From: Thermoproteota archaeon
Lineage (GTDB): Archaea; Korarchaeota; JAOZGF01; JAOZFZ01
Direction of reading: 5' to 3'
Length of the DNA: 64,000 nt
NCBI GenBank assembly: GCA_027492035.1
Contig: JAOZFT010000004.1
Location: 372,001-436,000, forward strand
This document shows positions 47,964-61,714 of the stretch, one piece after another. Each line of letters begins with the position of its first letter. Positions within the stretch are counted from its first letter, which is position 1. The translations under genes were made by a program, and so were the position numbers. Under the pieces are notes generated by a model. It was given only the letters and a program-made list of their open reading frames with translations. It was not told the DNA's origin and searched no databases.

Positions 47964-48054
47964 TGGGCCCGGCGGGATTTTCAGATTCCTCCCTTTGAAC
48001 CCGCGACACCCGGGTTAAAAGCCCGGTGCTCTAGCCTTGCTGAGCTACGGGCCC
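47964..48054 (-). tRNA. tRNA-Lys(TTT) with a T-loop intron
   Basis: A 91-nt gene maturing to 75 nt. Acceptor GGGCCCG/CGGGCCC, discriminator A; D-stem GCTC/GAGC; anticodon stem CCGGG/CCCGG with loop CTTTTAA (anticodon at 48017-48019) and no intron at 37/38; T-stem GCGGG/CCCGC. A 16-nt intron (47978-47993) splits the T-loop at 59/60. The BHB is clean: outer GGG/CCC, 3-nt bulge AAG, central TTCA/TGAA, bulge AAT. Confidence 0.95.
47978..47993 (-). other. 16-nt non-canonical intron in the T-loop of tRNA-Lys
   Basis: Excision restores TTCAAAT. The central helix TTCA/TGAA is a full 4 bp between 3-nt bulges and the outer helix is part of the T-stem. The position equals that of the tRNA-Ser T-loop intron. 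Confidence 0.9.
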
Positions 48055-48118: not shown

Positions 48119-48237
48119 TCCCGTCGGCAGGATTTGAACCTGCGAACCTGCCGGTTTCTGCATGGGCGACTGCTGTCGAAACCTCCTCCTCTAGAGGTTT
48201 CTACAGCCGGCCGCTCTACCAACTGAGCTACGACGGG
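48119..48237 (-). tRNA. tRNA-Tyr(GTA) with a 45-nt intron
   Basis: A 119-nt gene maturing to 74 nt. Acceptor CCCGTCG/CGACGGG with C1, as in archaeal tyrosine tRNAs, and discriminator A. Anticodon stem GCCGG/CCGGC, loop CTGTAGA, anticodon GTA at 48202-48204. The intron (48156-48200) is at the canonical 37/38 site with a perfect central helix CTGT/GCAG between bulges AGA and AAA, and it contains an inner 7-bp hairpin AAACCTC/GAGGTTT. It is probably cotranscribed with tRNA-Lys, 64 bases downstream. Confidence 0.95.
48156..48200 (-). other. 45-nt tRNA-Tyr intron at position 37/38
   Basis: This is the longest intron in the window. It has an inner hairpin and a single-stranded tail of about 20 nt before the 3' splice bulge. 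Confidence 0.88.
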
Positions 48238-59860: not shown

Positions 59861-61114
59861 ATGTTATATAGAAGAGTCCCAGAAACTTTGAGAAGGATGA
59901 ACTCTTTAAAAAGCCACATTCATAAAGTAAGGGTTTTAACCGGTCTTTTTAGGGAAGCAAAACCTACTGAACTTCCCTGCCTGATTTCTCTCCTATCAAG
60001 GCAATTCTTCTTTCCTTGGGACACTAAGCGTTTTAGGCTCGGTATCTACCATCTTTCTAAGGCAGTAACTGAAATTTCAGTTGCTAACTTAGTTATGAGA
60101 GAGTTACAGGTCTCTAAGGAACTAATACATCTTTTCATTAAAGATTTCAATAAATTAAAGAAGCAAACTTCTCTAATTGGGGAACAGCCTTTGTCCATAA
60201 CTGAAGTTTGTTCTCACTTAAAAAAAATACTTGAACTAAAGGGAAAAGGTAGTTTAAGGCAGAAAAAAAGTTTCCTGCAGGCTCTTTTTTTAAGGGCTAG
60301 TAAGGAAGAAGTTGAAAATTTGGTTAAAATAATCTTTCAGCAACCCATATCTATAAAACAGGAAGAACTAATGCTCTCAGCCCTTTCAAACTTTTTCTCC
60401 ATGCCCCTCTCAACCATCAAAGAACTTTATTTCTATAATCCCCACTTCAAGAAATTAACAGAGGCCCTTATCCTCTTAAAAAACTCAGAAATGAAAGGAG
60501 TCCTTGGCATTACTCTTTTTAAACCTTTAAAACCTATGAACATGGTTACAGTTAAAGAAATAAATGAGGTTACAAAGAAAATTTCTAACCCTGCCTTCCT
60601 TAACTTCCTAAAAGGATTGGAAGTTCAAATTCATTGTTTAAAAAACAAGGAAATTAATTTCAAAATATATACGCATAACCTTGTCGATTTCTCCAACAGG
60701 TTAAAAAAAATCAAAGAAATATTACCGGCAATCAACCATAAAAACTTCATTTTAGAAGCTGAACTCTTAAGTAACGGGAAGCATCCTCTCAGAAGAAAAA
60801 ATCAACCCTCCAAAGAATTAGCTTCAAAGATAAGTAATAAATCTGTTTCCAAAATCGAAATTCAACTGTTATTGGTTGACATTCTCTTTCTTGATGGATT
60901 AAACCTTGCTAAAGAACCAGGAGATATAAGGCTTTCCACTTTACAAAGACTAAAAGTTAAAGAAGGCTATGGAATCATTAAGCCAACAGTTTATTCTCTT
61001 CAAGAGTTCAAAAAAATGGATATAGGATTTGGGGACTACTTAGTAAAGGATAAAAATGCACCATATTACTTAAGCAATAAACTCCTCATTAGAGGAAAAA
61101 GAGGAAATTGTTAA
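59861..61114 (+). CDS. ATP-dependent DNA ligase homolog lacking the catalytic lysine (probably inactive)
   Basis: A 417-residue protein aligned by eye with archaeal LigI. An N-terminal DNA-binding domain (about 1-215) is followed by PLKPMNMV (PIKPML in ligases). The adenylation site should read KYDGERVQIH but here is FLKGLEVQIH near 260: K becomes F, D becomes K and R becomes E. Later blocks persist, as NFILEAEL near 300 and LVDILFLDG near 346. The motif near LVKDKNAPYY is altered, and the OB domain is missing. A strong AGGAG and promoter suggest it is expressed. Confidence 0.75.
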   Translation: MLYRRVPETLRRMNSLKSHIHKVRVLTGLFREAKPTELPCLISLLSRQFFFPWDTKRFRLGIYHLSKAVTEISVANLVMRELQVSKELIHLFIKDFNKLKKQTSLIGEQPLSITEVCSHLKKILELKGKGSLRQKKSFLQALFLRASKEEVENLVKIIFQQPISIKQEELMLSALSNFFSMPLSTIKELYFYNPHFKKLTEALILLKNSEMKGVLGITLFKPLKPMNMVTVKEINEVTKKISNPAFLNFLKGLEVQIHCLKNKEINFKIYTHNLVDFSNRLKKIKEILPAINHKNFILEAELLSNGKHPLRRKNQPSKELASKISNKSVSKIEIQLLLVDILFLDGLNLAKEPGDIRLSTLQRLKVKEGYGIIKPTVYSLQEFKKMDIGFGDYLVKDKNAPYYLSNKLLIRGKRGNC

Positions 61115-61457: not shown

Positions 61458-61549
61458 CGCCCCGGGCGGGATTTGAACCCACGTCAATGGCTCGACAGGC
61501 CATTATGCTCTCCGTTTTCGGTTTTAAAGCCGGGCTACACCACCGGGGC
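61458..61549 (-). tRNA. tRNA-Asp(GTC) with a D-loop intron
   Basis: A 92-nt gene maturing to 74 nt. Acceptor GCCCCGG/CCGGGGC, discriminator G; D-stem GTGT/GCAT; anticodon stem ATGGC/GCCAT with loop CTGTCGA (anticodon at 61494-61496) and no intron at 37/38; T-stem GTGGG/CCCGC. The D-loop is 28 nt instead of 10; an 18-nt insert (61512-61529) explains this. It has a relaxed BHB: central CCG/CGG with an inner TTT/AAA helix. A TATA-like ATATTTTAAAA lies about 28 bases upstream. Confidence 0.93.
61512..61529 (-). other. 18-nt non-canonical intron in the D-loop of tRNA-Asp
   Basis: Removing 18 nt leaves D-loop AGCCCGGAGA with the invariant GG. The insert ends in CGG, which repeats the bases before it, so the cut points are ambiguous by up to three bases. 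Confidence 0.8.
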
Positions 61550-61714
61550 ATTTAAGTAAGTAATGTGCTGTTTTTTAAAATATTCCCTTTTACCCCCTTA
61601 ATAAATATTTCTCTTCTCTTTCTTATCATACTTTAATTTGTTTTTAGTTTTGTTTTTTAATGGGTTTAAGGAGTGAATATTATTTTTTACTTTTGTTGGT
61701 TAAAATGTTTTACT

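Follow-up and report, generated by a model that had tools for sequence, protein, structure and literature searches.

The gene at positions 59861 to 61114 (+) of the window, that is, of the whole 64,000-nucleotide stretch of DNA analysed, which comes from a deep-branching archaeon, appears to encode a paralogue of the large ATP-dependent DNA ligase of archaea that has become inactive, and we consider it fairly likely that this paralogue has been retained as a pseudoenzyme that docks on PCNA or on an active ligase. The catalytic residues are missing from the window copy and from an orthologue in a second genus, and the two genes bear the marks of purifying selection.

Domain composition of the pseudo-ligase

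The open reading frame described in the preliminary description is real, with 417 codons and an ATG start preceded by GGAG. The features discussed below are the following:

59861 to 61114, plus strand: pseudo-ligase gene (417 aa; ligase DNA-binding domain, DBD, and inactivated nucleotidyltransferase, NTase or adenylation, domain, without OB domain)
59867 to 60352, plus strand: N-terminal DNA-binding domain (PF04675, residues 3-164)
60164 to 60178, plus strand: PIP-box-like strip QTSLI of predicted function (residues 102-106), aligned with QKSFF of the Pyrococcus furiosus ligase
60347 to 60355, plus strand: degenerate LRxG loop in the DBD (I163 and I165 stand where ligases have an invariant R and G)
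60533 to 60955, plus strand: inactivated adenylation domain (PF01068, residues 225-365)
60599 to 60634, plus strand: former motif I, LNFLKGLEVQIH (residues 247-258), with K replaced by F249, D by K251 and R by E254
60746 to 60763, plus strand: former motif III, FILEAE (residues 296-301; Glu301 kept)
61025 to 61081, plus strand: former motif IV with the residual stretch preceding motif V, GFGDYLVKDKNAPYYLSNK (residues 389-407)

The ligase homology claimed earlier over the DNA-binding and adenylation domains was borne out by both domain models and by a profile-profile match. On the 417-aa protein, PF04675 (DNA_ligase_A_N) scored 45.1 bits (1.7e-11) against a curated cut-off of 24.6, and PF01068 (DNA_ligase_A_M) scored 35.5 bits (1e-8) against a cut-off of 26.2, so that the predicted product is a homologue of ATP-dependent DNA ligases as judged by its DBD and NTase models. 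Archaeal ligase structures were matched at 3.7e-19 with the single sequence and at 3.3e-32 with a two-sequence profile, the best solved relatives by sequence being the archaeal DNA ligases 4eq5, 2cfm and 3rr5, and a profile-profile match to the ligases found in the phylum reached a probability of 99.8% across 392 columns. The OB domain, said at the outset to be absent, was indeed lacking: PF04679 gave no match on the 417-aa protein, and tblastn with the OB regions of seven ligases as queries detected no trace of such a domain in the DNA 3' of the gene. Codon usage and codon-position GC were inside, or near, the range of the neighbouring genes, and the protein is basic, with a pI of 9.5 to 10.1 per domain.

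Loss of the catalytic residues

The motif I signature KxDGxR was present in all fetched ligases covering the site, and its K, D and R were kept in 61 of 61 aligned ligases; the corresponding stretch is FLKGLE in the window copy and LFNGVIE in the orthologue. Independent alignments placed F249, K251 and E254 at the three positions, in agreement with the first reading of the sequence. A lysine at the catalytic place, which that reading had left to be checked, was absent in every alignment, and the orthologue has no lysine across motif I either (SPVALLFNGVIEVQVH / VALLFNGVIEVQVH). A lysine misplaced through misalignment was thus rejected, as the orthologue has none there.

The losses went beyond those described earlier. 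The RR of motif III is H272/N273, the F of motif IIIa is V339, the E and G of motif IV are G391 and D392, and motif V (KxK) is entirely gone. Residues kept in the window copy comprised G252, Q256, H258, E301 of motif III, D340, R357, K396 of motif IV and Y402, and a pseudo-ligase-specific PYYLSxK in the region of residues 389-407 was common to the window copy and the orthologue. Judged by their motifs, the two proteins would therefore not qualify as ATP-dependent DNA ligase enzymes, either by motif I, which has no nucleophilic lysine, or by motif V and the OB domain (PF04679), both of which are missing. On the established ligase mechanism, a protein that lacks the nucleophile, motif V and the OB domain would be expected neither to load AMP nor to close around a nick.

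Of 92 alignment columns with a hydrophobic residue in 95% or more of the ligases, 80 stayed hydrophobic in the window copy and 75 in the orthologue, whereas only 6 of the 22 near-invariant polar residues of ligases survive in both pseudo-ligases, a pattern that suggests a fold retained and a chemistry discarded. AlphaFold2 run on the two pseudo-ligase sequences gave a pLDDT of 38, the number of sequences being too low.

Orthologue and evidence of selection

The orthologue, recovered by a whole-genome search of relatives, is a protein of 407 aa encoded on contig JAOZFL010000057.1, from a MAG that bears the label Thermoproteota archaeon isolate Flange_M5_B4 and belongs to the same family but to a different genus. 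It begins with the same MLYR as the window copy and shares its end point and truncation. Both copies were 30.5% identical (7% if shuffled) and formed a clade with a support of 100/100. They have in common 32 residues that are each present in at most ~10% of ligases, among them E in place of the motif I arginine, N in place of a motif III arginine, and S in place of the glycine directly before motif V. Separate decay would not yield these residues, which thus point to a single, already inactive ancestor of both copies.

Differences between the copies at codon positions 1, 2 and 3 were 0.557, 0.415 and 0.667, respectively, versus 0.727, 0.713 and 0.734 when shuffled, position 2 being the most conserved. 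Synonymous sites were saturated between the two genes and both frames were open, the probability of a stop-free frame through drift at equilibrium being about 1e-14. Retention for a function rather than decay into a pseudogene, as had been proposed for the window copy, is consistent with the sole relative found being unbroken and with a codon-position pattern that indicates purifying selection. A pseudogene, a frameshift or an assembly error was accordingly rejected on the basis of the two open frames and the codon-position constraint. With an orthologue that also lacks the active site, an intact frame and the signature of purifying selection, the protein would be a conserved pseudoenzyme.

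Distribution and origin

No further members besides the two were found in the 29 genomes of the phylum, among about 790 sampled archaeal genomes (394 across the domain and 398 of another phylum), in the genomes of named species covered by pattern scans or in viral contigs, searches that more divergent members could escape. Two members are thus known, from two genera of one family in a small archaeal phylum. A viral or mobile origin was rejected, as no viral relative was found and the contig of the orthologue shares only the pseudo-ligase gene with the window; the eight viral ligases found matched the query only from its adenylation region onward, leaving the DBD uncovered. No gene neighbourhood was conserved between the window copy and the orthologue. 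A TnpB/IS605-like gene (L006 263-1069, +) lies upstream of the orthologue, and none adjoins the window copy.

As for the source paralogue, neither type 2 (p 0.38) nor type 1 (p 0.28) of the phylum was rejected in AU tests. In the free tree, the pseudo-ligase clade was placed next to another archaeal group, a position that is weakly supported (55/89) and involves long branches.

Other ligases in the same genomes

A search for an intact ligase in the window genome (93% complete), advised in the preliminary description, retrieved three full-length ligases with all domains, of 592, 566 and 574 aa (L001, L002 and L003; G000:C9 and G000:C19). The genome of the sister genus likewise has three other ligases, one of them incomplete as read (487 aa). 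Paralogues with a predicted intact site thus accompany the pseudo-ligase in both genomes, three in each. The active ligases were 71, 53 and 70% identical between the two genomes, versus 30.5% for the pseudo-ligase, which is therefore the fastest evolving of the four. The type-2 ligase, L002, evolves faster than both other active copies. Elsewhere in the phylum, a type-2-like ligase (L049; G016:C40) was split across two frames (305 and 257 aa), indicating a frameshift or an assembly error.

Proposed role and alternatives

In the ligase of P. furiosus, the DBD and NTase domains touch two adjacent PCNA subunits, and QKSFF (residues 103-107) constitutes the PIP-box (PMC6212441). The strip at this position is QTSLI in the window copy and QISIA in the orthologue, with Q and S in both and the aromatic pair replaced; the ligase of a relative of the same phylum (G004) has QTALL. 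The absence of the aromatic pair leaves PCNA binding weakly supported. Conservation of Q and S at the PCNA-binding strip of a DBD-NTase body favours docking on PCNA or on an active ligase, the role that we prefer with moderate confidence, and, with the LRxG loop and the OB domain gone, ligase-like encircling of nicks is somewhat disfavoured relative to protein docking. The pseudo-ligase would probably function, then, without catalysis, by docking on the clamp or on DNA. The DBD-NTase body would fold and serve as a docking module, which would sit on PCNA via its PIP-like strip, on an active ligase, or on both, and would, with no sealing of its own, occupy or organise a site for ligase on the clamp. 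More tentatively, the two proteins may represent the first natural dead-ligase family, a non-catalytic subunit on the sliding clamp or paired with an active ligase that times nick sealing.

The main rival to docking is binding to DNA or nicks, in which the DBD would still grip DNA and the pseudo-ligase would shield or mark nicks or DNA ends without sealing them. The net charge of the DBD (+19 and +10, versus a ligase mean of +1.3) is in accordance with it, as is the retention of a GxGS segment with basic residues behind it. However, the active type-2 ligase of the same genome also has a basic DBD (net +11), the invariant LRxG loop is gone (R replaced by I or S), and the OB domain for encircling DNA is absent; we therefore regard nick binding as rather unlikely. 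A recently dead pseudogene, still drifting with its frame open, would be in line with the fast evolution, the loss of most catalytic residues and a partner that is not known. Against it, the inactivation is ancestral and common to two genera, codon positions 1 and 2 are constrained, and two frames of more than 400 codons have stayed open at saturating synonymous divergence, which makes it highly improbable. Equally improbable is that the protein is still an active nucleotidyltransferase whose lysine has moved or whose substrate differs: although E301, D340 and K396 are kept and K251 of the window copy lies two residues off the old lysine position, the orthologue stretch SPVALLFNGVIEVQVH has no lysine, and both copies have lost motif V, the Arg of motif I and the aromatic residue of motif IIIa.

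Relation to known systems

In concordance with the earlier statement that no archaeal pseudo-ligase is known to have been described, the open full-text literature searched yielded no naturally inactive DNA ligase. With the large archaeal/eukaryotic ATP-dependent ligase (PF04675-PF01068-PF04679; P. furiosus Lig, 2cfm and 4eq5), the pseudo-ligase shares the DBD-NTase order, the hydrophobic core and several structural motif residues, but it lacks the Lys, Asp and Arg of motif I, motif V, the OB domain and the LRxG loop. Like the inactivated archaeal PolB, a conserved dead paralogue found beside active copies and for which a structural role was proposed in 2008 (PMC2527604), it is a dead paralogue of a replication enzyme next to active ones; PolB, however, belongs to another enzyme family and its inactivated form is widespread, whereas the pseudo-ligase is known from two genera. 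Catalytically dead LIG4 supports end joining through a structural role (PMC9638927, PMC11754673) and is evidence that repair can be served by a ligase devoid of catalysis, but it is an engineered, full-length mutant and not a natural paralogue. A conserved pseudo-ligase would mean that the ligase body is useful beyond sealing, as engineered dead LIG4 suggests, and would be a candidate non-catalytic factor for repair or for the maturation of Okazaki fragments in a lineage of uncultured archaea whose complement of four ligase genes is unusual.

tRNA genes in the window

A likely tRNA-Asp gene was observed at 61459-61551 (-), with anticodon GTC by eye and, in the region of the D-arm, an insertion of ~17-20 nt that may be an intron in an atypical place; it was missed by ARAGORN and fell under the Rfam cut-off (24.2 bits). 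Two further tRNA genes, at 47964-48054 and 48119-48237 (-), were detected by Rfam and missed by ARAGORN, the latter spanning 119 nt and probably containing an intron.
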